A stretch of 64,000 nt of DNA from Natrinema thermotolerans DSM 11552. Lineage in GTDB: Archaea > Halobacteriota > Halobacteria > Halobacteriales > Natrialbaceae. Location of the stretch: contig AOIR01000031.1 of NCBI GenBank assembly GCA_000337115.1, forward strand, positions 1 through 64,000, written 5' to 3'. Position numbers and translations under genes: made by a program. Position 1 is the first letter of the stretch; every line of letters begins with the position of its first letter. The notes below the pieces were generated by a model. It had not been told where the DNA came from and ran no database searches. It saw only the letters and a program-made list of their open reading frames with translations. Positions 15,417 to 39,225 of this stretch are shown here, one piece after another.

Positions 15417-16346
15417 TTACTCCAACAGCCAACTCAACAACGCCTTCTGCGCGTGGAGTCGGTTCTCGGCCTGATCGAAAACGATCGACCGATCGCCCTC
15501 GATGACGTCATCCGTGACCTCCTCGCCGCGGTGGGCGGGGAGACAGTGCATGACCGAGGCGTCGGGGGCGTTCTCGAGCAGGTCCACGTTGACCTGGAAA
15601 CCCTCGAAGTCGTTCATCCGGACGTCGCGTTCGTCCTCCTGGCCCATCGAGATCCAGACGTCCGTATAGATGACGTCGGCGCCGGTGGCAGCCTCGACGG
15701 GATCGGTCGTGACCGTCGGATCGCCGCCCAGTTCACGGGCCCGCTCGAGGACCTCGCCGTCGACCTCGTACCCCTCCGGCGTCGCGATCGTCAGGTCGAT
15801 GTCGGTCAGCGCACAACCGAGCGCGAACGACTGGGCGACGTTGTTGCCGTCGCCGATCCAAGCCGCCGAGACGTCCTCGAAGCCGTCCTGGTGTTCGCGG
15901 ATCGTCTGTAGATCCGCGAGCGTCTGGCAGGGGTGGGCGTCGTCGGTGAGTCCGTTGACGATCGGTACCGAGGAGTACTCCGCGAGTACCTCGACGTTCT
16001 CGTGTTTGAACACGCGGGCCATCACGGCGTCGACGTACCGCGAGAGCGCACGCGAGGTGTCTTTCAGCGGTTCGCCCCGGCCGAGCTGGATGTCGTCTTC
16101 CCCGAGGAAGATCGCGTGCCCGCCGAGTTGGGTCATGCCCGTTTCGAAAGAGACCCGGGTACGGGTACTCGCCTTCTGGAAGAGCATCCCGAGGGTCTGG
16201 CCGGACAGGTCCGCGTGGTCATCGCCGGCGTCGACGGCGCGTTTGTACTCGTCGGCCCTGTCCAGCACTGCAAGCAGTTCCGCCTCGGAGAGGTCATCGA
16301 CGTCGAGGAAGTGTCTCGGCTCCGTCTCGTTCGTTGCTGTTGTCAT
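15417..16346 (-). CDS. argF: ornithine carbamoyltransferase
   Basis: A 309-residue enzyme that joins carbamoyl phosphate to ornithine to give citrulline, step six of arginine synthesis. The carbamoyl-phosphate site is ASTRTRVSFE near residue 60, HPCQTLADL near 138 lies in the active site, and MHCLPAH near 270 is the OTCase-specific HCLP motif that separates it from aspartate transcarbamylase. It is the last gene of the argWXCBDEF operon, 23 nt after argE. Its 3' end is partly duplicated just downstream (15216-15319). Confidence 0.95.
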   Translation of the reverse strand: MTTATNETEPRHFLDVDDLSEAELLAVLDRADEYKRAVDAGDDHADLSGQTLGMLFQKASTRTRVSFETGMTQLGGHAIFLGEDDIQLGRGEPLKDTSRALSRYVDAVMARVFKHENVEVLAEYSSVPIVNGLTDDAHPCQTLADLQTIREHQDGFEDVSAAWIGDGNNVAQSFALGCALTDIDLTIATPEGYEVDGEVLERARELGGDPTVTTDPVEAATGADVIYTDVWISMGQEDERDVRMNDFEGFQVNVDLLENAPDASVMHCLPAHRGEEVTDDVIEGDRSIVFDQAENRLHAQKALLSWLLE

Positions 16347-16369
16347 GGTATGATAGCTCGTCTGAAACG

Positions 16370-17440
16370 TTATTGCTCACTGAGCGTCCGTGCGACGCGC
16401 TCGAGGACCGATACCGATCGGTCGAACTCCGACAGCGACAGTCGCTCGTCGGGCGCGTGATCGAGGTCCGAGTTGCCCGGCCCGTAGGTGACCATCGGAC
16501 AGTCCCAGGCCCCGGCATAGATGTTCATGTCGCTCGTGCCGGTCTTGCGCACCAGACGCGGATCGGCGCCCTCCTTCCGGATGGCGACCCGAAACGCCCG
16601 GGCGACCGGCGTTCGCGGACTCATCATCACCGGCGGGACCTTGTCCTTCCAGGTCACGGTCCCGACCTCGAGTTCGGCCTCGGCGGCCTCGCGGACGGTC
16701 CCGACGTCGAGGGCCGGCGGCACGCGCAACTGGACGTCCATCGTCGCCTCGACGGAGAGTCCGTCGTCGCTGACGCCGCCCTCGATGTCGACCGGTTTGG
16801 TCGTCACCTGCTCGAAGACCGGTTCGTACTCGTCGCCCTCGAAGTACGCCTCGACGGCCGACCACCAGCGGACGGCGTGTTGGATCGCGTTCGGGTCCGG
16901 CCGAGACGTGTGGCCGGACTCGCTGGTCGCGACGTAGGTGCCGGCGATCAGTCCGCGGTAGCCGAGCGTAATGCCGTCGGCGCCGGAGGGCTCGCCGTTG
17001 ACGACGGCCTTCGGTGGCTCCTCGCGGTCGTCGACAAGATAACGCGACCCCTTCGAGTCGACCTCCTCGCCGACGACGCCGACGAAGGAGACGCCGGTGC
17101 GAACGGCGGCGGCCGCCATCGCGGCGAGCGGCCCCGTCGCGTCGACGCTGCCGCGGCCCCAGAGGATCTCGTCGTCGCCGGTCTCCTCGACCTCGACGGG
17201 GATGTCCCCGGGGACAGTGTCGATATGCGAGGTCAGGAGGACGGAATCGTCCGCCGGCGCGCGGACGTTCCCGACCGCGTCGATCCAGACCTCCCGGTCG
17301 TGGGCCTCGAAGAAGTCCACGAGGCGTTTGGCCGCCTCGCGTTCCTCACGGGTCGGCGAGGGGATCGAGACGAGATCGACGAGCAACTCGCGGGCCGCCG
17401 CGGTCGACACGTCGCTCGAGGGGTCGGCGTTCGCACTCAT
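16370..17440 (-). CDS. argE: [ArgW]-L-ornithine hydrolase (M20 peptidase, LysK/ArgE type)
   Basis: A 356-residue zinc hydrolase that releases ornithine from the C-terminal glutamate of the carrier protein ArgW. M20 metal-site motifs are visible: SHIDTVPG near residue 70, GRGSVDATGPL near 95, GVVGEEVDSKG near 120 (catalytic Glu) and TSDMNIY near 310. The family fits LysK rather than bacterial ArgE because the rest of the operon is the LysW-type set. Its start overlaps the argD stop by four bases, so translation is coupled. Confidence 0.9.
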   Translation of the reverse strand: MSANADPSSDVSTAAARELLVDLVSIPSPTREEREAAKRLVDFFEAHDREVWIDAVGNVRAPADDSVLLTSHIDTVPGDIPVEVEETGDDEILWGRGSVDATGPLAAMAAAAVRTGVSFVGVVGEEVDSKGSRYLVDDREEPPKAVVNGEPSGADGITLGYRGLIAGTYVATSESGHTSRPDPNAIQHAVRWWSAVEAYFEGDEYEPVFEQVTTKPVDIEGGVSDDGLSVEATMDVQLRVPPALDVGTVREAAEAELEVGTVTWKDKVPPVMMSPRTPVARAFRVAIRKEGADPRLVRKTGTSDMNIYAGAWDCPMVTYGPGNSDLDHAPDERLSLSEFDRSVSVLERVARTLSEQ

Positions 17441-18585
17441 GAGTCGTCGGTCGCTCCGAGAACGTCGGCGATCGCGTCGACCACTCGATCGGCCTCGGCC
17501 CGCTCGAGGACGAGCGGCGGGAGCAGTCGGAGGACGGTTCGACCGGCCGGCAGCGCCAGCACCTGGTGGTTCATCGCGAGATCGCGGGCGACGCGGTTCG
17601 CGCCGCGTTTCAACTCGACGCCGACGAGCAGGCCCTCGCCGCGGACTTCACGCACCGAATCGCCAAGTGCCGCCTCGAGTTCGGTGACCAGATAGTCACC
17701 GATCTCGGCGGCGTGGGCGGGCCACTCCTCCTCGACCAGCGTCGAGACGGTCGCGTGGACCGCCGCGCCGACGACCGGGCCGCCGCTGAAGGTGGCGTTG
17801 TGGGAAGCCGCGCCGTCGGCGATCCAGTCCTGCACCGCGACCGCGCCGACGGGCAGGCCGTTGCCCAGCCCCTTCGCGGTCGTCAACACGTCGGGCGTCA
17901 CGCCCGCGTTCTGGCAGGCCCACATCTGGCCGGTGCGGCCCATTCCGGTCTGGACCTCGTCGAGAACGAGGGCCGCGCCGGCCGCCTCGGTCAGGTCGCG
18001 GGCCGTCTCGAGGTAGCCCGCCGGCGGGACGTTGATCCCGCCTTCGCCCTGGATCGGCTCGAGGATCAGGGCCGCGGTCTCGTCGTCGACGGCCGCGGCG
18101 AGTTCGTCACTATCACCGTAGGGAACGAACTCGACGTCGCCGGCCAGCGGCTCGAACGGTTTCTTGTACTTGTCCTTCCAAGTGGCCGCGAGCGAGCCCA
18201 TGGTTCGCCCGTGGAACGAGCGGGTCGCGGCGACGATCTTCGAGTCGCCGGTCGCCGAGCGGGCGAACTTCAGCGCGGCCTCGTTGGCCTCGGTCCCGGA
18301 GTTACAGAACCACGCCTGCTCGAGGCCGTCGGGCGCGGCCGCGACGAGCGAGGCGTAGGCATCCTCTCGCGCCTGCACGGGATAGGAGGAGTCGACGAAC
18401 GTCAGGTCGGCGACCTGCTCCTGTACCGCGTCGACGACCGCGGGGTGAGAGTGGCCCAGCGGCGTGCAGGCGTAGCTCGCGCCGACGTCGAGATACTCCG
18501 TGCCGTCGTCGGTGTAGAGGTACGGCCCCTCACCGCGTTCGATACCGATCGGTTTGCTTCCGGAGATGAAATCGAGGTCGCTCAT
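17437..18585 (-). CDS. argD: [ArgW]-glutamate semialdehyde aminotransferase (LysJ/ArgD)
   Basis: A 382-residue class III PLP aminotransferase. It transfers an amino group from glutamate to ArgW-bound glutamate semialdehyde, giving ArgW-ornithine. Visible motifs are NSGTEANEAALKFAR (phosphate loop), FHGRTMGSLAATWKDKY, LVLDEVQTGMGRTG (the Asp that binds the pyridine nitrogen) and the PLP lysine in LTTAKGLGNGLPVGA. It overlaps argE at its 3' end and argB at its 5' end by four bases each (ATGA), so the three are translated as a chain. Confidence 0.92.
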   Translation of the reverse strand: MSDLDFISGSKPIGIERGEGPYLYTDDGTEYLDVGASYACTPLGHSHPAVVDAVQEQVADLTFVDSSYPVQAREDAYASLVAAAPDGLEQAWFCNSGTEANEAALKFARSATGDSKIVAATRSFHGRTMGSLAATWKDKYKKPFEPLAGDVEFVPYGDSDELAAAVDDETAALILEPIQGEGGINVPPAGYLETARDLTEAAGAALVLDEVQTGMGRTGQMWACQNAGVTPDVLTTAKGLGNGLPVGAVAVQDWIADGAASHNATFSGGPVVGAAVHATVSTLVEEEWPAHAAEIGDYLVTELEAALGDSVREVRGEGLLVGVELKRGANRVARDLAMNHQVLALPAGRTVLRLLPPLVLERAEADRVVDAIADVLGATDDS

Positions 18586-19448
18586 TCGTCGGCCTCCGTT
18601 TCCGCGTCGTGTTCGTCCGCGAGCGCGCCGGGCTCGAGGGTCGTCCCCTCGCCCGCGAGCGCACTCGAGATCGGGTCGTCGGCGTTTGCCGTCGCGACGG
18701 TGACCGAAGCCGCACCACCCTCGAGGGCTTCCTCGGCGGCCATGACCTTCTTCGTCATGAACCCCTCAGCCGCCGTCTTGACGGCCGCGAACTCCTCGGG
18801 GGTCGACGCCGAGTCGATCCTGGTGGACTCGTCGTCGGGATCCTCGTAGATCCCCGAGACGTCGGTCAGCACCACGAGGTCGGCCTCGAGCGCGCCGGCG
18901 ATCGCCGCCGCAGCGCGATCGGCGTCGGCGTTGACTGCCGTGTAGCCGCCCGACTTCTCCTTGCCCAGCATGGGAACGGAGACGACGGGCGTGTAACCGC
19001 CCGAAAGCGTCGTCTCGAGGAGGTCGGCGTTGACCGACTCGATTTTGCCCGAGTGGTCGCCGCGCTTGATCTTCTTCTTGCCGTCCTCTGTGACGCGGAC
19101 GGCGGACTTGCGCTTGCCCTCGAGGAGCTTGCCGTCAGTGCCCGAGAGGCCGACGGCGTCGACGCCCTCGTTGTGCAGGCTCTCGACCAGATCGGTGTTC
19201 AACTTGCCCGGCATCACCATCTTGAAGACGTCCATCGTCTCCTCGTCGGTAAATCGCCCGACGACGCCGCCGGGCGTTTCGACGTACGTCGGCTCCTTCC
19301 CGAGGTCCTCGAGCGTCTCGTCGACGGCGGTCGAGCCGCCGTGGGTCAACACGACGTCTTCGCCGTCCTCGACGAGCGAGGCGACGTCGGAAAGCGCCCC
19401 TTCGGGATCGACGGCGCGTGCGCCGCCGATTTTGACAACGGTCGTCAT
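18582..19448 (-). CDS. argB: [ArgW]-L-glutamate kinase (LysZ/ArgB)
   Basis: A 288-residue amino-acid kinase that phosphorylates the side-chain carboxyl of the glutamate carried on ArgW. The N-terminal VVKIGGARAVDP holds the ATP-site lysine and glycine loop, VVLTHGGSTAVDE is the second glycine-rich substrate loop, and AVNADADRAAAAIA plus VLTDVSGIYED are the C-lobe nucleotide motifs. The protein ends in a short acidic tail. It starts two bases after the argC stop region and overlaps argD by four bases. Confidence 0.92.
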   Translation of the reverse strand: MTTVVKIGGARAVDPEGALSDVASLVEDGEDVVLTHGGSTAVDETLEDLGKEPTYVETPGGVVGRFTDEETMDVFKMVMPGKLNTDLVESLHNEGVDAVGLSGTDGKLLEGKRKSAVRVTEDGKKKIKRGDHSGKIESVNADLLETTLSGGYTPVVSVPMLGKEKSGGYTAVNADADRAAAAIAGALEADLVVLTDVSGIYEDPDDESTRIDSASTPEEFAAVKTAAEGFMTKKVMAAEEALEGGAASVTVATANADDPISSALAGEGTTLEPGALADEHDAETEADE

Positions 19449-19449
19449 C

Positions 19450-20526
19450 TCAGGGCGCCCCCACGGGGTGCAGCCCCGTGAACTCGAGTCCGGCCGTCTC
19501 CTCGAGGCCCAGCGCGACGTTGGCGGCGTGGACCGCCTGTCCCGCGGAGCCCTTCATCATGTTGTCGATCGCCGAGAAGACGACGATGCGCTTGTTCGAG
19601 GGATCGAGTTCGAAGCCGACCTCGGCGAGGTTGGTGCCAGCGACCGCCTTCGGTTCGGGGTAGCGATAGACGCCGGAACCGCCGGCGGCCATCCGGACGA
19701 ACGGCTCGTCCTCGTAACAGCCCCGATAGGCCTGCCAGAGGTCCCCCTTCGAGACCGGTCCCGACGGGAAGACGTGATTCGTCGCGCTCGCGCCGCGGAT
19801 CATATCCACGGCATGACAGGAGAAGGCCACCGAGGTGTCGAGGAACTGCTCGATCTCGGCCTCGTGGCGGTGGCCCGTCGGCGCGTACGGACGCACGACG
19901 CCCGAGCGCTCGGGGTGGCTCGAGGCCTCGCCGCCGCCGGCGCCGCCCTCCGAGGAGCCGACTTTCACGTCGACGACGATCTGCTCGCCGCCCTCGAGGA
20001 TGCCGTGTTCGAACAGCGGGTAGAGCCCGAGGATCGTCGCGGTGGCGTTACAGCCGCCACCCGCGATGAGTTCCGCGCCCTCGAGGTTCTCGCGGTTGAT
20101 CTCGGGGAGCGCGTACTCGGCCTGCTCGAGGTACTCGGGGGCCTCGTGGCCGTCGTACCACTCGTCGTACTGGGCCTCGCTCTCGAGGCGGAAGTCCGCC
20201 GAGAGGTCGACGACGGTGTCGGCGATCTCGAAGAAGTCGTCGATGCGGCCCATCGAGACGCCGTGGGGCGTCGCGGCGAACAGCACGTCGACCGACTCGA
20301 GGTCGTCGGGTTCGGTAAAGCGCAGGTCCGACCCGCGAAGCGGCGGGTGGACGGAGCCGACGCTCTTGCCGGCCTTCGACCGGCTCGTGACTTCGACGAG
20401 TTCGAAATTGGGGTGGCCGGCGAGCAGTCGCAGGAGTTCGCCGCCCGTGAAGCCGCTGCCGCCGATGACGCTCGCGGTGACCGCCTCGGCGTCCGGCGCA
20501 GCACCGATGTCGTTGCCTACCGTCAT
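19450..20526 (-). CDS. argC: [ArgW]-glutamate 5-phosphate reductase (LysY/ArgC)
   Basis: A 358-residue NADPH-dependent reductase that makes the semialdehyde on ArgW. ASVIGGSGFTGGELLRLL is the nucleotide-binding loop near residue 20, and the catalytic cysteine is in AGGGCNATATILGLYP near residue 160. A glycine-rich stretch, GSSEGGAGGGEASSHPERSG, lies in the NADP/phosphate loop. The open frame extends much further upstream, but ATG 20526 overlaps the argX stop as ATGA and opens the conserved domain, so I use it. Confidence 0.92.
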   Translation of the reverse strand: MTVGNDIGAAPDAEAVTASVIGGSGFTGGELLRLLAGHPNFELVEVTSRSKAGKSVGSVHPPLRGSDLRFTEPDDLESVDVLFAATPHGVSMGRIDDFFEIADTVVDLSADFRLESEAQYDEWYDGHEAPEYLEQAEYALPEINRENLEGAELIAGGGCNATATILGLYPLFEHGILEGGEQIVVDVKVGSSEGGAGGGEASSHPERSGVVRPYAPTGHRHEAEIEQFLDTSVAFSCHAVDMIRGASATNHVFPSGPVSKGDLWQAYRGCYEDEPFVRMAAGGSGVYRYPEPKAVAGTNLAEVGFELDPSNKRIVVFSAIDNMMKGSAGQAVHAANVALGLEETAGLEFTGLHPVGAP

Positions 20527-21410
20527 TTGGCGGACACCTCGAGTTCCGGATCGGCGGCCGTGGCTTTCTCCTCGAGCCAGTCGACGACGGTGCCGGCGAC
20601 GTCGGTCTCGACGGCCTCGTCGAGGGCCTTGAACTCGACGGTGTGGTTGACTTCGTGGACGGTGTAGCCGTCCGCGGTCTCCATCAGGTCGATCCCGAGC
20701 AGCCCGCCGCCGACGGCGTCGGTGGCTCGTTCGACGAGATCCAGCGCCTCGTCGTCGATCTCGAAGACGTCCGTCTCCGCGCCTTTCGCGGCGTTGGTGA
20801 TCCAGTGGTCCGAGGATCGAACCATCCCCGCGATGGGTTCGCCATCGATCGCCAGCACGCGGATGTCGCGGCCGGGCTTCTCGACGAACTCCTGGACGTA
20901 GAACACCTTGTGTTCGTAGTGGCCCAGCGTCGCCTTGTGTTCGAGGATGGCCTCGGCGGCCGACTCGGAGTCGATCTTGGCCATCAGTCGCCCCCACGAG
21001 CCGACGACCGGCTTGAGGACGCAGGGGTAGCCGAACTCCTCGATGGCGTCCATCGCGGTCTCTTTGGTGAACGCGACCTTGGTCTCGGGGGTCGGGACGC
21101 CCGCATCCTCGAGCGCGAGGCTGTTCTTTACCTTGTCCGCACAGACGTCGGCGGTCTCGTGGCTGTTGACCACGGGAATGCCGTACGATTCGAAGAACTG
21201 CGTGGCGTACAGGCTCCGGCTCGTGGCGAGACAGCGGTCGACGACGATGTCGAGCCCGTCGAACGCCGCGGGCGCTTCCGCAATGTCGAAGGTCTGCTTG
21301 CGGACGTCGATCTTCGTGATCTCGTGATCGCGCTCGCGAAGCTCGTTGAGCAGGAGCTTCTCGTCTTTGCGAATCCGTGAGTAGAGTATGCCTACGTTCA
21401 CGCGAGCCAC
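20523..21410 (-). CDS. argX: glutamate--[ArgW] ligase (LysX/ArgX, ATP-grasp)
   Basis: A 295-residue ATP-grasp ligase that attaches glutamate to the C-terminal glutamate of ArgW, the first committed step. Motifs include LYSRIRKDEKLLLNEL at the N-terminus, CVLKPVVGSWGRLMAKI (ATP-binding lysine and glycine loop), FYVQEFVEKPGRDIR and VHEVNHTVEFKALDEA (metal-binding Asn and specificity loop). The start is either GTG 21410 or GTG 21401; an AGGTGG string 6-11 nt before 21401 makes the later one equally likely. It follows argW by about 80 nt. Confidence 0.92.
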   Translation of the reverse strand: MARVNVGILYSRIRKDEKLLLNELRERDHEITKIDVRKQTFDIAEAPAAFDGLDIVVDRCLATSRSLYATQFFESYGIPVVNSHETADVCADKVKNSLALEDAGVPTPETKVAFTKETAMDAIEEFGYPCVLKPVVGSWGRLMAKIDSESAAEAILEHKATLGHYEHKVFYVQEFVEKPGRDIRVLAIDGEPIAGMVRSSDHWITNAAKGAETDVFEIDDEALDLVERATDAVGGGLLGIDLMETADGYTVHEVNHTVEFKALDEAVETDVAGTVVDWLEEKATAADPELEVSAK

Positions 21411-21489
21411 CTCTGATTGTGGGTCGCGGCGCTACGCGCCCCGCGAACCGTCGCAGCGGAGGACGGCAGTTTCCCAGCCGTCTGCAAGG

Positions 21490-21654
21490 TCACTCACCCC
21501 AGTCCTCTTCCAGCTCGGGGGCCTGTTCGAGGACTGGCGGCTCGGTATCGACGACTTCCAGCTCGGCACCGCAGGTCGTACAGTCAACGATCTCTCCCAC
21601 TTCCAGATCGTCGTGCAGGGACACTTCTGCCCCACACTCGACGCATTCGGTCAT
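21490..21654 (-). CDS. argW: amino-group carrier protein ArgW (LysW)
   Basis: This 54-residue acidic carrier protein holds the growing arginine precursor on its C-terminal glutamate, shielding the amino group. The sequence shows CVECG and CTTCG, a four-cysteine zinc knuckle (residues 4-28), and ends in the signature EDWGE; the last Glu is the attachment point. It is too short for most gene filters but is indispensable to the pathway. It is the first gene of the WXCBDEF operon. A TATA-like CTTTAAGG about 27-34 nt before the ATG suggests a leaderless operon promoter. Confidence 0.95.
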   Translation of the reverse strand: MTECVECGAEVSLHDDLEVGEIVDCTTCGAELEVVDTEPPVLEQAPELEEDWGE

Positions 21655-21680
21655 TGTACCCGAACGTGGGTGCCGGGATC

Positions 21681-21690
21681 CCTTAAAGCC
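21681..21690 (-). promoter_or_regulatory. TATA box of the argWXCBDEF operon
   Basis: On the minus strand CTTTAAGG lies about 27-34 nt before the argW start. The same intergenic region holds no other strong candidate. Confidence 0.55.
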
Positions 21691-21794
21691 TTCGAACTTA
21701 ACAGCAAAATTACACTATCCGCACGCCACGCTAACGGTCCGTCGGGCCTACGTTACGGCAGGTCTACTTTGACATATCATGTAGTCGGTAACTA

Positions 21795-21810
21795 ATCCCC
21801 TCGCGGGGAT
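21795..21810 (-). terminator. GNRA-capped hairpin after argH
   Basis: ATCCCC pairs with GGGGAT; read on the minus strand the loop is GCGA. It lies about 70 nt after the argH stop. There is no long T-tract, so its terminator role is tentative. Confidence 0.4.
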
Positions 21811-21879
21811 CGTCGTCGTCGAACCGGTCGGTCGGCACGCGGCGAGCGCGGCCGGCGTCCCGCCGACGACGTGACGAAC

Positions 21880-23436
21880 TCAGACATAGCCGTTCACCTC
21901 CGAGCGCAACCGCTCGTGGGCGGCCTCGAGCGCGTCGGTCAGCCCCGCGAGGTCGTCGGCGTCGGCCGAAAGCGACTCGCGGGCCCCCTCGATCTGGGGC
22001 GCGACCGCCTCGGGCGCGGGGCCGCCCTGCGAGTCGCGGCTCGCGACGCTCTCGACCGGGTCGAGGGCCGCTTCGACCGCCCCGCGCTCGACGTGGGCCT
22101 CAAGCGGCTCGCCGAGGACCTCCCGGGCCGCGGCCTCGAGGGCGTCGTAGTCCGCACCGCCCTCGGCAGCGACGGCCACCAACTCGTGTGCGGTCCGGAA
22201 CGGCAACCCGTTGGCCGCCAGCAGGTCCGCGACGCCGGTCGCCGTCGAGAAGCCCTCGCCGGCTTCCGCCGCGAGCGTCTCCTCGTTCCAGTCGGCGGTC
22301 GCGACCGCGCCCGCTGCGACCTCGCTGGCCTCGGTCACCGCGTCGACGGTCTCCCAGGCGTGGGTCGTCGCCCGCTGGAGGTCGCGGTTGTACGCGCGGG
22401 GCAGCCCCTTCAGCGTCGTCGTCAGCCCCTGAACGCCGCCGGCCGCGTCGCCCGCGACCGCACGAACCAGTTCCAGCGTGTCCGGGTTCTTCTTCTGGGG
22501 CATGATCGACGACGTCGAGGAGTAGTCGTCCGCCAGGTCGACGAAGCCGCGGTTCGCGAAGATGATCACGTCCTCCGCCAGCCCCGACAGCGTCGTCGCG
22601 TGGGTCGACAGCGCCTGGGTCGTCTCGAGCAGGAAATCGCGGCTCGAGGCGGCGTCCATCGAATTTTCGACGATCCCGTCAAAACCGAGCAGGTCCGCGG
22701 TGCGCTCGCGGTCGATGTCGAACGTCGTCCCCGCGAAGGCGGCCCCGCCCAGCGGCGACTCGTTGAGCCGGTCGTAGGCCGCGAGCAGCCGTTCGGTGTC
22801 GCGGCGGACCGCGCCCTCGTAGGCCAGCGCCCAGTGTGCCACGGTGGTCGGCTGGGCTGGCTGGAGGTGCGTGTAGCCGGGCATGATCGTCTCCCGGTGG
22901 GCGTCGGCGACGTCGACGAGCGACTCGCGCAGCGCGAGCGTCGTTTCGATCGCCTCGAGGACGTCCTCGCGCAGGCGATAGCGGATGCAGGCCGCGACCT
23001 CGTCGTTGCGCGAGCGCGCGGTGTGCATCTTCCCGCCCTCGGCACCGATGCGTTCGATCACGGCCGTCTCGATGGCCTCGTGGACGTCCTCGCCGTCGGG
23101 CAGGGAGCCGTGGCCGTCGACCTCGATCGCGTCCAGCGCGGTCAGGATCTCGCCGGCCACGTCGTCCCCGATGACGTCCTGTTCGGCCAGCATGACGGTG
23201 TGAGCGCGGTCGACCTCGAGGTCGGCCGCGAAGATGCGCCGATCAGCCGCGAGCGAGGAGAGGAAGCTCCGGGCGGGGCCGCCGCTGAAGCGGTCCCGGC
23301 GGACGACGCCGTCGGATCCGGGATCCGACGAGGATCGCTCACCGGCCTCGTCGTCCGTGCCGTCGGTCGGCTCGCCGCCGTCCGTCGCGATCGCCCGTTC
23401 GGCCGCGCCGCCCTCGTGAGCGCTCTCCTCGGTCAT
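21880..23436 (-). CDS. argH: argininosuccinate lyase
   Basis: A 518-residue lyase of the fumarase/aspartase superfamily that splits argininosuccinate into arginine and fumarate. The signature SSIMPQKKNPDTLELVRA is present near residue 310, HTARSRNDEVAACIR near 135 is the substrate loop, and GYTHLQPAQPTTVAHW near 190 contributes the catalytic histidine. The first 60 residues are an acidic low-complexity extension beyond the bacterial form. The ATG at 23436 lies two bases from the argG stop, so argG and argH form one unit, separate from argW. Confidence 0.95.
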   Translation of the reverse strand: MTEESAHEGGAAERAIATDGGEPTDGTDDEAGERSSSDPGSDGVVRRDRFSGGPARSFLSSLAADRRIFAADLEVDRAHTVMLAEQDVIGDDVAGEILTALDAIEVDGHGSLPDGEDVHEAIETAVIERIGAEGGKMHTARSRNDEVAACIRYRLREDVLEAIETTLALRESLVDVADAHRETIMPGYTHLQPAQPTTVAHWALAYEGAVRRDTERLLAAYDRLNESPLGGAAFAGTTFDIDRERTADLLGFDGIVENSMDAASSRDFLLETTQALSTHATTLSGLAEDVIIFANRGFVDLADDYSSTSSIMPQKKNPDTLELVRAVAGDAAGGVQGLTTTLKGLPRAYNRDLQRATTHAWETVDAVTEASEVAAGAVATADWNEETLAAEAGEGFSTATGVADLLAANGLPFRTAHELVAVAAEGGADYDALEAAAREVLGEPLEAHVERGAVEAALDPVESVASRDSQGGPAPEAVAPQIEGARESLSADADDLAGLTDALEAAHERLRSEVNGYV

Positions 23437-23438
23437 GC

Positions 23439-24638
23439 TTACTCGTCCTCGTCGGTCGCGTTCGCGGCGATGGCCTCGTTCGCGAGGCGGCGCTGGAAGC
23501 CGTGGTACTTCGCGACGCCGGTCGCGTCCTCCTGTTTGATCTTCCCGACCGTCTCGGTGTCGAAGGAGGCGTGTTCGGCCGAGTAGGCCGCGTACTTGCT
23601 GTCGCGTGCGACCGGGCGGGCCTGGCCGCCCTCGAAGCGGATCGTGACCGTGCCGGTCACGCGCTGTTGGGTCTCGTCGATGAAACTCTCGAGCGCGCTG
23701 ACGAGCGGCGCGTCGATCAGGCCCTCGTAGCCCTTCTGGGACCACTGCTGGTCGATCTGCTGCTTGAACTGGCGCTCCTCCTGGGTCAGGACGAGACCCT
23801 CGAGCGCTTCGTGGGCGTTCAACAGCGTCGTCGCACCGGGGTGTTCGTAGTTCTCGCGGACCTTCAGCCCGAGCATGCGGTCTTCCATCATGTCGGTGCG
23901 GCCGACGCCGTACCCGCCGGCGAGGTCGTTGAGGTATTCGATGAGTTCGACCGGCTCGTACTCCTCGCCGTCGACGGCGACGGGGTAGCCGTTCTCGAAG
24001 GCGATCTCGATCTCCTCGGTCTCGGTACCCGGCTCGTCGGTCCACGCGTAGATGTCACGCGGCGGGACGTAGTTGGGATCCTCGAGGGCGTCGCCCTCGA
24101 CCGAGCGGCTCCAGATGTTGGTGTCGATCGACCAGTCGCCGCCGCTGCCGCCCTCGACGGGCAGGTCACGCTCGGCGGCGTACTCCTGTTCCCACTCGCG
24201 GGTGAGTCCGAGTTCGCGAACGGGGGCGATCACTTCGAGATCGGAACTGCGCCAGACGGCCTCGAAACGCAGTTGGTCGTTGCCCTTGCCGGTACAGCCG
24301 TGGGCGATGCCGGTACAGTCCTGTTCCTCTGCGACCTCCAGGATCGCTTCCGCGATCACGGGACGGGCAAGCGCCGTGCCGAGCGGGTAGCCCTGATAGG
24401 TCGCGTTCGCGCGAACGCTCTCGAGACAGAGTTGAGCGAATTCCGCTCGCGCGTCGACGACGTAGTGTTCGAGGCCGAGCGCCTCGGCGGTTTCTTCGGC
24501 TTCGTCGAACTCTTCGGCCGGCTGGCCAACGTCGACGGTAACGCCGATCACGTCGTCATATCCGTATTCCTCCTCGAGCAGCGGGACACAGACGGTCGTG
24601 TCCAGGCCGCCCGAGAACGCGAGTGCAACGCGGGTCAT
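23439..24638 (-). CDS. argG: argininosuccinate synthase
   Basis: A 399-residue enzyme that joins citrulline and aspartate using ATP. ALAFSGGLDTTVC at residues 5-17 is the P-loop-like PP-motif of the N-type ATP pyrophosphatases, and IAHGCTGKGNDQLRFE near 115 is the second nucleotide motif. I use ATG 24638 because it opens the conserved SGG motif; a GTG six codons upstream is possible. The 5' leader is unusual: a promoter, a small arginine-rich reading frame, a hairpin and a T-tract lie between about 24910 and 24640. Confidence 0.95.
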   Translation of the reverse strand: MTRVALAFSGGLDTTVCVPLLEEEYGYDDVIGVTVDVGQPAEEFDEAEETAEALGLEHYVVDARAEFAQLCLESVRANATYQGYPLGTALARPVIAEAILEVAEEQDCTGIAHGCTGKGNDQLRFEAVWRSSDLEVIAPVRELGLTREWEQEYAAERDLPVEGGSGGDWSIDTNIWSRSVEGDALEDPNYVPPRDIYAWTDEPGTETEEIEIAFENGYPVAVDGEEYEPVELIEYLNDLAGGYGVGRTDMMEDRMLGLKVRENYEHPGATTLLNAHEALEGLVLTQEERQFKQQIDQQWSQKGYEGLIDAPLVSALESFIDETQQRVTGTVTIRFEGGQARPVARDSKYAAYSAEHASFDTETVGKIKQEDATGVAKYHGFQRRLANEAIAANATDEDE

Positions 24639-24721
24639 GTCGTACTCGAACGACACCAGCGGACGGCCTTAAGCCCATTGGTTTAGTGCTTGAAAATAAG
24701 CGGTAGAGCGTCTGCTAACCG

Positions 24722-24726
24722 AAAAA
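24722..24726 (-). terminator. T-tract in the argG leader
   Basis: On the minus strand five T residues (GATTTTTCGG context) lie between the leader-peptide hairpin and argG. A weak GTTTC/GAAAC stem (24733-24751) sits directly before it. Archaeal RNA polymerase stops at short T-runs, so this could end transcription conditionally ahead of argG. Confidence 0.45.
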
Positions 24727-24778
24727 TCTGCAGTTTCGGGATCGATGAAACGAATCGGAGACGTGGAGTGAAAGGGTA

Positions 24779-24799
24779 GACGGGCTCAAAAGGCCCGTC
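24779..24799 (-). promoter_or_regulatory. perfect hairpin at the end of the leader-peptide frame
   Basis: GACGGGC and GCCCGTC pair without mismatch around a seven-base loop. The stop codon of the arginine-rich reading frame lies in the loop, and its last two Arg codons lie in the ascending arm. A ribosome stalled on the arginine run would cover or free this stem. Confidence 0.6.
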
Positions 24800-24878
24800 G
24801 AAGTCGTCGCGGTCGCCGCCGAGCGACGGTCCCGTCGGTACCGAGAACGGCGAGCGTGGTGCCGACGGAGTGGCTCAT
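24786..24878 (-). CDS. candidate arginine leader peptide of argG
   Basis: A 30-residue frame that starts MSHSVGTTLAVLGTDGTVA and ends RRRPRRLRRAF. Seven of nine consecutive codons are arginine, all CGN. It begins 24 nt downstream of a clear TATA element, so it would be translated from the 5' end of the argG transcript. Its stop is inside a perfect hairpin, and a T-tract lies further down before argG. This matches the logic of bacterial amino-acid attenuators: scarce Arg-tRNA would stall the ribosome on the run. The idea rests on sequence alone. High-GC chance frames can be Arg-rich, but no overlapping gene explains this one. Confidence 0.55.
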   Translation of the reverse strand: MSHSVGTTLAVLGTDGTVARRRPRRLRRAF

Positions 24879-24901
24879 TGGTAGGGGATGGGGAATCCGA
24901 G

Positions 24902-24909
24902 TATTAAAA
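24902..24909 (-). promoter_or_regulatory. TATA box of the argG leader transcript
   Basis: On the minus strand TTTTAATA lies 24-31 nt before the ATG of the leader frame, with a purine-rich BRE-like GGAAAGG just upstream. This is the best promoter between the neighbouring membrane-protein gene and argG, and it puts about 240 nt of leader before argG. Confidence 0.7.
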
Positions 24910-24978: not shown

Positions 24979-26100
24979 CTACTCCTCGTCCTCTTCGGGC
25001 AGGGAGAGTACGTTCTCCCGGCCGATCCGAAAGACTTCGATCTCGTCGGCCTCGCGCAGGTCGCCGACGACCTGACTCGTCTTGGCCTCGGTCCAGCCCA
25101 GTTCCGAGACCACCGCCTGCTGTTTGATCCGACCGCCGCGTTCCTCGAGCAGGCGGAGGACGCGTTCCTCGTTGCTGAGCAGTTCCGGTGGCGGGCCGTC
25201 GGCGGCGTTCGACGCCGAACCGGTCGATCCGTCGGGCTGTGTCGGCCGTTCGGCCTCGCGTTTGCTCCCGTTGTCGGCGGTCCGTTCGCGGCCGAGCAGC
25301 CACCCGCCGGCGCCGACGGCCGCGAGCAGGGCCAGTGCCAGAACGACGATCGTCCACGGCATCGTCGGCCCCTCGTTCGAGGGCGTCGCGGTCGTGTTCG
25401 CGTTCGAGCCGCCGTCCTCGATCAGGACGACCCACGGCTGTGCCGTGGAGAAGTCGACCTCGCTCCCCCGCCAGATGACCATGTCGTCGGTCCGATTGCT
25501 CGGCGACGGATCGATCTGGGGCTGACCGTCGTTCTCGTAGATCGAGTACCCGGCCGGCCAGCGAAACTGCAATCGCGTATCGTCGTCCAGCGTGAACCCG
25601 GAGAGTGCGGGCCCCGCCGTGAGCTGGTTGATCTCGACGGCCGCGAACGATTCCCAGCGGAAAGAGACCTCGACGTGGCCGATTCTCTGTAGTGCGGTCT
25701 CGTTTTCCGTCGCGATCGAGAGGTTCGACAGCGACATGTTCTGCCCGGTCTCGTTTGCCCCGTCGGCGACGGTGTCGTTCCACTTGGTCCGCTCCGCGTC
25801 GACGTAGGCCTCAGTGTCGGACTCGACGTCCGTCCGCAGCCGTTCCCACGCCGCCTTGGACGTCCCGTTCTCGCCGTAGCGGAACTGGTAGTCGACGGTG
25901 ACCAGCGCCGAGCCGTTTTCCGCGATGAAAACGTCCATCACGATCTGATCGGCGTCCTCGAGGGCCAGTTCGTCCTCCGCTTGCAGCGCCGCTGGTCGGC
26001 TCCCCGGGTCGGCCGCGGCACCGATCGGAGCCGCCGCGGCGACGACCGAACAAACCACCACCAGCACGATACTCAGGGCTCGCAGCCCCCTCGCGTCCAT
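24979..26100 (-). CDS. membrane-anchored protein with cytoplasmic winged helix
   Basis: A 373-residue protein with an N-terminal signal segment (residues 8-28), an extracellular beta-rich domain (about 45-225) with several N-glycosylation sequons (NGS, NGT, NMS, NLS, NET), one membrane helix near 250-270, and a cytoplasmic winged helix at the C-terminus (NEERVLRLLEERGGRIKQQAVVSELGWTEAKTSQVVGDL). This one-component architecture is common in haloarchaea: it likely senses something outside and binds DNA or a partner inside. Its targets are not evident. It lies upstream of the argG leader on the same strand. Confidence 0.75.
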   Translation of the reverse strand: MDARGLRALSIVLVVVCSVVAAAAPIGAAADPGSRPAALQAEDELALEDADQIVMDVFIAENGSALVTVDYQFRYGENGTSKAAWERLRTDVESDTEAYVDAERTKWNDTVADGANETGQNMSLSNLSIATENETALQRIGHVEVSFRWESFAAVEINQLTAGPALSGFTLDDDTRLQFRWPAGYSIYENDGQPQIDPSPSNRTDDMVIWRGSEVDFSTAQPWVVLIEDGGSNANTTATPSNEGPTMPWTIVVLALALLAAVGAGGWLLGRERTADNGSKREAERPTQPDGSTGSASNAADGPPPELLSNEERVLRLLEERGGRIKQQAVVSELGWTEAKTSQVVGDLREADEIEVFRIGRENVLSLPEEDEE

Positions 26101-39150: not shown

Positions 39151-39225
39151 CGGGCGCGATGGGATTTGAACCCACGACCGTCGGATTAGAAGTCCGACGC
39201 TCTTTCCGGACTGAGCTACGCGCCC
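39151..39225 (-). tRNA. tRNA-Arg (anticodon TCT)
   Basis: Folds fully as 75 nt with discriminator: acceptor GGGCGCG/CGCGCCC, D-stem GCTC/GAGC, anticodon stem TCGGA/TCCGA with loop CTTCTAA (anticodon TCT), five-base variable region and T-arm GTGGG-TTCAAAT-CCCAT. No intron and no encoded CCA. It reads AGA, a rare codon in this GC-rich genome. A TATA-like GCTTATACC lies 25-32 nt upstream. The 3' end is duplicated 97 bp further on. Confidence 0.95.

Follow-up and report, generated by a model that had tools for sequence, protein, structure and literature searches.

What does an open reading frame of 30 codons, with arginine at seven of the nine codons in its last part, do ahead of the arginine biosynthesis genes of a haloarchaeon? 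The question arises in a stretch of 64,000 nucleotides from Natrinema thermotolerans DSM 11552 (hereafter the window), and our findings point toward an arginine attenuator of the leader-peptide type that controls the haloarchaeal arginine cluster, a reading to which we give a probability of roughly 0.6. Its sensor part, a ribosome positioned on Arg codons, is well supported, and we infer that the frame is translated in the cell, that charged tRNA is sensed, which way the response goes and that its output is termination. The features of the locus are as follows:

15417-23442, minus strand: arginine cluster after argG, with argH, lysW, argX, argC, argB, argD, argE and argF in this order
15417-16346, minus strand: argF
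16370-17440, minus strand: argE
21490-21654, minus strand: lysW
23439-24638, minus strand: argG (argininosuccinate synthase), which heads the arginine cluster, ATG at 24638
24764-24780, minus strand: G-less pyrimidine-rich tract, directly after H2
24779-24799, minus strand: H2, a perfect 7-bp GC hairpin (GACGGGC-CTTTTGA-GCCCGTC) with the leader stop codon in its loop
24786-24878, minus strand: leader peptide ORF of 30 codons (MSHSVGTTLAVLGTDGTVARRRPRRLRRAF, then stop), ATG at 24878, TGA at 24788-24786
24795-24821, minus strand: run of Arg codons (RRRPRRLRR, CGR codons), the presumed sensor
24831-24869, minus strand: H1, N-terminal hairpin with arms at 24869-24862 (TCCGTCGG) and 24838-24831 (CCGACGGG)
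24902-24909, minus strand: TATA box TTTTAATA of the leader promoter P1, with a predicted transcription start at or a few nucleotides from the leader ATG (leaderless)

The identities of argH, argX, argC, argB and argD come from Pfam, and lysW, argE and argF were named from their sequence and from the gene order of the arginine cluster in Haloferax (PMC8305020). A preliminary description of this DNA had noted the TATA box, the leader frame with its seven Arg codons in nine, the 7-bp hairpin around the stop codon and the argG ATG, and all of these coordinates are correct. The TATA box lies about 31 nt ahead of the leader ATG in the window; among the 136 regions with a recognised box this distance is 29-34 nt in 133, with a mode of 31 nt (73 regions). 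Such a spacing of about 31 nt is the ground for predicting that the leader transcript is leaderless.

With ArgG as the query, argG loci were collected from 29 genomes within the genus, 80 named Halobacteria contigs and 60 further regions across other families. A leader was scored when an ATG frame of 14-60 codons had a TATA box 18-36 nt upstream, ended 55-170 nt before argG and held at least 3 Arg in 9 codons. By these automatic criteria it is present in 151 of the 158 unique Halobacteria argG upstream regions, and in 136 and 91 of them when at least 4 or at least 5 Arg in 9 codons are demanded. Dinucleotide shuffles satisfy the three thresholds in 2.9%, 1.2% and 0.2% of cases, and the reverse complements in 5, 1 and 0 of 158. 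The seven regions that failed, when inspected by eye, mostly carry the run and the hairpin too, but their frame starts at GTG or is longer, or their TATA box is degenerate. The preliminary description had proposed an alignment of haloarchaeal argG upstream regions as a check, and this alignment bears it out: the leader frame and its Arg run are conserved class-wide, with compensatory changes in the stem around the stop. Conservation of the leader over the whole class Halobacteria, with an Arg run in frame and a conserved stop-codon hairpin, is strongly supported.

Selection on the leader is concentrated on its arginine codons. When 60 Natrialbaceae leaders are placed on the ArgG tree, parsimony needs 1, 2 and 47 changes at the first, second and third codon positions of the five Arg columns, compared with 158, 146 and 160 for the 18 N-terminal columns; arginine is thus held, and the N-terminal half is near-neutral, yet open and in frame. 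In line with this notion, dN/dS within the genus is about 0.39 in the Arg run and about 1.0 in the N-terminal part. Placement of the stop is less strict. Four leaders from Natronorubrum and Salinadaptatus (L037, L038, L043 and L045) no longer have a stop codon in the H2 loop, so that the frame continues to 76-88 nt before argG, and they keep the Arg run despite this loss, which indicates that exact stop placement is non-essential.

The leader is also confined to one kind of locus. A covariance model built from the Arg run, H2 and the tract finds one strong match per genome, at argG (E 1.6e-7 at 24762-24821 in the genome of the window, and likewise in relatives), with weaker matches elsewhere in the genomes at E 1e-3 to 1e-2; the statement of one leader per genome rests on this model. 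No such leaders were seen before trpC, hisG or carA in the same genomes (30 loci each, operon starts not being mapped gene by gene). At argG loci of the other archaeal classes tested within the phylum there is no leader of the halobacterial kind, and the few weak Arg-containing GTG or TTG frames found there misfit in start or position. Rfam holds no relevant family for the region, the sole match being sub-threshold, irrelevant and on the opposite strand.

H2 encloses the stop codon in its loop in 116 of the 151 leaders, and in most of the others the stop lies downstream of the 3' arm. The arms vary with their pairing kept (GGGCC/GGCCC, GGGGTC/GACCCC, GGCCC/GGGCC, GGGGC/GCCCC, GGGCTC/GAGCCC), and so does the length of the loop. 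In a gap-free alignment of 60 leaders the stem is paired in 72.8% of cells against 68.9% after shuffling, and its covariation score is 0.140, against 0.102 after shuffling (none of 500 shuffles reaches 0.140) and at most 0.114 in slid versions; this score is an underestimate because loop lengths differ. H1 has family-specific sequences in a common layout, and each arm matches its native partner (-24.1) better than foreign ones (-20.4). Such a hairpin would account for the partial N-terminal conservation inside families. The mean folding z-scores are -1.4 for the N-terminal half, -1.3 for H2 and about -0.2 (-0.17) for the 60 nt after H2.

Downstream of H2 the transcript is marked by composition. 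Guanine occurs 0.48 times per 15 nt at 5-20 nt past the leader stop, against 4.77 after control genes, and 86% of the leaders but 2% of the controls have at most one G in this post-stop 15 nt, the controls being long ORFs of which some are probably on the wrong strand. No conserved hairpin-plus-T terminator was found before argG, the tract past H2 being C/T-rich and G-less without a T run, and a scan for sigma-type promoters and T-tail terminators, which is ill-suited to archaea, found nothing. The T5 tract (24726-24722) that had been noted ahead of argG is present in the window, but it is T3-T4 in most close relatives and unconserved in other families, and it was rejected as a conserved terminator. 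Likewise, no pair of mutually exclusive downstream structures competing with H2 is conserved across families; repeated GACGGG/CCGTC segments allow alternative pairings in Natrinema, none of them shared across families. As a separate observation, Haloferax loci (e.g. L085 and L091) carry a genus-conserved mini-hairpin with a UUCG-type tetraloop, TCC-TTCG-GGA, about 25 nt past the leader stop.

These features allow us to propose a model. Transcription from P1 would produce a leaderless mRNA starting at the leader ATG, to be translated co-transcriptionally by a ribosome whose speed over the CGR (mostly CGA) run would read out charged tRNA-Arg. When arginine is ample, the ribosome would complete the leader and exit at the stop within H2, H2 would form, and the pyrimidine-rich, G-less RNA left bare behind the polymerase would permit termination, so that few P1 transcripts would reach argG. 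Given that a conserved T-tract terminator is absent, this termination would probably be factor-dependent, FttA/aCPSF1 being the probable factor. When arginine is short, the ribosome would stall in the Arg run with its footprint over the 5' arm of H2, preventing formation of H2 and/or access of the termination factor, and P1 transcripts would extend through argG and the cluster. H1 would probably pace ribosome and polymerase, or refold behind the stalled ribosome.

The geometry of the leader is compatible with such a switch. The first Arg codon usually lies 7-12 codons before the leader stop; if the footprint is of bacterial size and reaches some 15 nt past the P site, a ribosome on this codon would just spare H2 and one on later Arg codons would cover its 5' arm. 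With this footprint, stalling within the run would block H2 and departure of the ribosome would allow it. The response direction expected of a biosynthetic operon would follow on condition that H2 or the downstream tract promotes termination. We favour termination as the output on account of the G-less tract, the lack of a conserved hairpin hiding the argG start and the known biology of FttA, which acts at U-rich RNA and cuts some 22 nt upstream of the 3' end of the transcript (PMC11616081), and has been proposed to be mutually exclusive with a coupled ribosome (PMC8116511). A classical two-structure mechanism is possible in single genera, for instance through the GACGGG/CCGTC repeats of Natrinema. 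The original proposal, that argGH is tuned to charged Arg-tRNA by ribosome position, is supported in part, namely for the Arg-codon leader as sensor; its alternative structures and terminator are not conserved, and a second promoter may offer a bypass:

24668-24673, minus strand: P2, a further TATA-like box that reads CTTAAG here and GAATTTAAG/GAATTTAT in relatives, some 30 nt upstream of the argG start

This box (24673-24668), which the preliminary description did not include, has a counterpart about 30 nt before the argG ATG in 58 of 58 Natrialbaceae regions counted and in 10 of 11 from Haloferax. Among other regions it occurs in 27 of the 36 whose leader-to-argG gap is at least 125 nt, and in 3 of the 46 with a gap below 125 nt, where a few short gaps reflect a misassigned argG start. 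Short-gap regions mostly have an ACA-rich stretch before argG, and P1 is their only visible promoter. Since P2 sits between leader and argG, argG in the genus of the window need not rely on read-through. In Natrialbaceae and Haloferacaceae, P2 would supply an extra, probably basal, argG transcript, and read-through from P1 may be only part of argG expression in the genus of the window. In single-promoter lineages the leader stands between the sole visible promoter and the arginine cluster.

Two further elements were seen in the leader-to-argG gap. Directly upstream of P2, Natrialbaceae and Haloferax share the conserved element CTCTAYCn(2-4)TTAATTTC/TTATTTTC (24691-24708 in the window), which could bind a regulator of P2 or mark the 3' end of the leader transcript. 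L076, L102, L138, L148 and other single-promoter loci have a further GC hairpin 30-60 nt before argG, followed by an ACA-rich unstructured stretch that runs to the argG ATG.

The same arginine-sensing leader might act not through termination but through re-initiation at argG or decay from the 5' end. In single-promoter lineages argG begins 58-160 nt past the leader stop, on one presumed transcript and in an unstructured ACA-rich start region, an arrangement that would suit such an output, as does the absence of a recognisable terminator; there is also a precedent in an Arg-codon leader that acts through RNase G on Salmonella speF (PMC6386406). However, neither H1 nor H2 shows conserved pairing with the argG start, the gap is mostly unstructured, and lineages with P2 can make leaderless argG mRNA without the leader. 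We judge this output unlikely.

A different explanation would dispense with translation, the CGR repeats and the palindrome forming a conserved RNA or DNA motif, such as an operator or a protein-binding hairpin, in which the frame is incidental. H2 is indeed palindromic, CGACGACCGGGCC shows high nucleotide conservation, and the third positions of the Arg codons are mostly A or G, a purine bias to which an RNA-level constraint could contribute in part. Against this, a frame-coupling test that starts from the TATA box and the CGR run, independently of the ORF, shows that the ATG to which the box points shares the frame of the run in 115 of the 116 regions that have a single such ATG, where one third is expected; because the regions are related, a p-value for this count should not be read at face value. 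In addition, among related leaders 31 of 49 length changes between TATA box and stop are multiples of three, compared with 8 of 62 between stop and argG (Fisher p 3e-8). The stop-free, frame-keeping yet neutral N-terminal half, and a hairpin whose loop length and arm sequence change as pairing persists, likewise speak against a motif, which we regard as improbable. These frame tests, together with the shuffles and reverse complements, rule out a chance ORF. That the Arg run was selected as codons ahead of the arginine cluster is strongly supported.

Could the peptide itself be the signal, its basic Arg/Pro-rich chain stalling the ribosome alone or with free arginine, in the manner of fungal AAP or TnaC, rather than through uncharged tRNA? 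An Arg/Pro-rich C terminus does recur among leaders (RRPRPGR, RRRPGSP). Yet leaders contain 2-8 arginines, the shortest runs being of only 2-3 Arg codons, with widely varying spacing and surrounding residues, and the choice of codons is as would be expected for codon sensing: with argG itself as the control, in place of the long-ORF set, CGA and CGG make up 61% and 27% of Arg codons in leader tails and 3% and 6% in argG. Such rare codons fit a sensor, and an arrest peptide appears very improbable. Hardly credible at all is an ordinary small protein gene unrelated to argG regulation, which could claim its own promoter P1 and, in some families, a P2 for argG, but would have to combine a neutral N-terminal half, on which an independent microprotein was rejected, with a length of about 21 to 50 codons and occurrence at argG only.

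The codon-sensing leader that we favour can be set beside known systems. Like the his, trp, leu and thr attenuators, it has a short ORF immediately upstream of a biosynthetic operon, a run of codons in this ORF for the amino acid that the operon makes, and a hairpin coupled to ribosome position. It differs from them in its predicted leaderless start, its stop codon inside the hairpin loop, arginine as the amino acid, an archaeal polymerase with archaeal termination factors, and the lack of both a recognisable hairpin-plus-T terminator and a conserved alternative 2:3/3:4 pairing. The haloarchaeal element would work like a bacterial leader attenuator, but no intrinsic terminator was found for it, and its regulatory response is a prediction from sequence. 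The fungal AAP (the CPA1/arg-2 uORF) is a fixed arrest sequence that acts on scanning ribosomes. It too is a uORF before an arginine-biosynthesis gene and responds to arginine, whereas the haloarchaeal peptide is free to vary outside the Arg run. In E. coli tnaC, free Trp is sensed through the nascent chain and a catabolic operon is controlled. Common to tnaC/Rho and the haloarchaeal leader would be a ribosome stalled near the leader end beside a C-rich, G-poor stretch able to load a termination factor; the haloarchaeal leader differs in that it has a run of codons and belongs to a biosynthetic operon.

Among bacterial systems with Arg codons, orf34 (speFL) of Salmonella speF comes nearest (PMC6386406). 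Both leaders have Arg codons in about 30 codons, which in orf34 report on arginine and in the haloarchaeal leader would do so, and in orf34 the position of the stop matters (PMC6386406); termination there is factor-dependent (Rho) at a pyrimidine-rich stretch, and a similar tract lies next to the end of the haloarchaeal leader. Features of orf34 alone are a pair of adjacent Arg codons within a conserved peptide domain (DUF2618), control of ornithine decarboxylase and an RNase G output, and the two leaders have no apparent relation in sequence or pathway, as judged by description rather than alignment.

No archaeal mechanism of transcription attenuation or antitermination was known as of 2021 (PMC8448881). 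This agrees with the initial impression that an archaeal arginine attenuator had not been described, for which we found no counterpart in searchable open-access papers; no later archaeal attenuation case was found in open-access full text, and PMC12482152 makes no mention of argG or leader peptides. The locus may represent the first case in archaea of transcription attenuation by a ribosome: a leaderless Arg leader would decide FttA/aCPSF1-dependent termination of the arginine cluster, would be old enough for all Halobacteria to share and would have arisen independently of the bacterial systems. We put this proposal forward tentatively and at somewhat less than even odds. In archaea, hardly any regulation that acts after RNA polymerase has been recruited is described. 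If true, a class-wide leader peptide would show that archaea sense amino acids by coupled translation, in genetically tractable organisms such as Haloferax volcanii, and would be a natural, arginine-tunable substrate for the question of whether ribosome and FttA compete on the archaeal elongation complex.

Two other genes complete the picture of the window. Upstream of the leader, at 24979-26100 and oriented like argG, lies a gene for a haloarchaeal DUF7345/DUF7343 protein with DUF7343 at its C terminus, for which no link to arginine was seen. The sole tRNA gene of the window, at 39151-39225, encodes a tRNA-Arg with anticodon TCT, by which the CGR codons of the leader would not be read.
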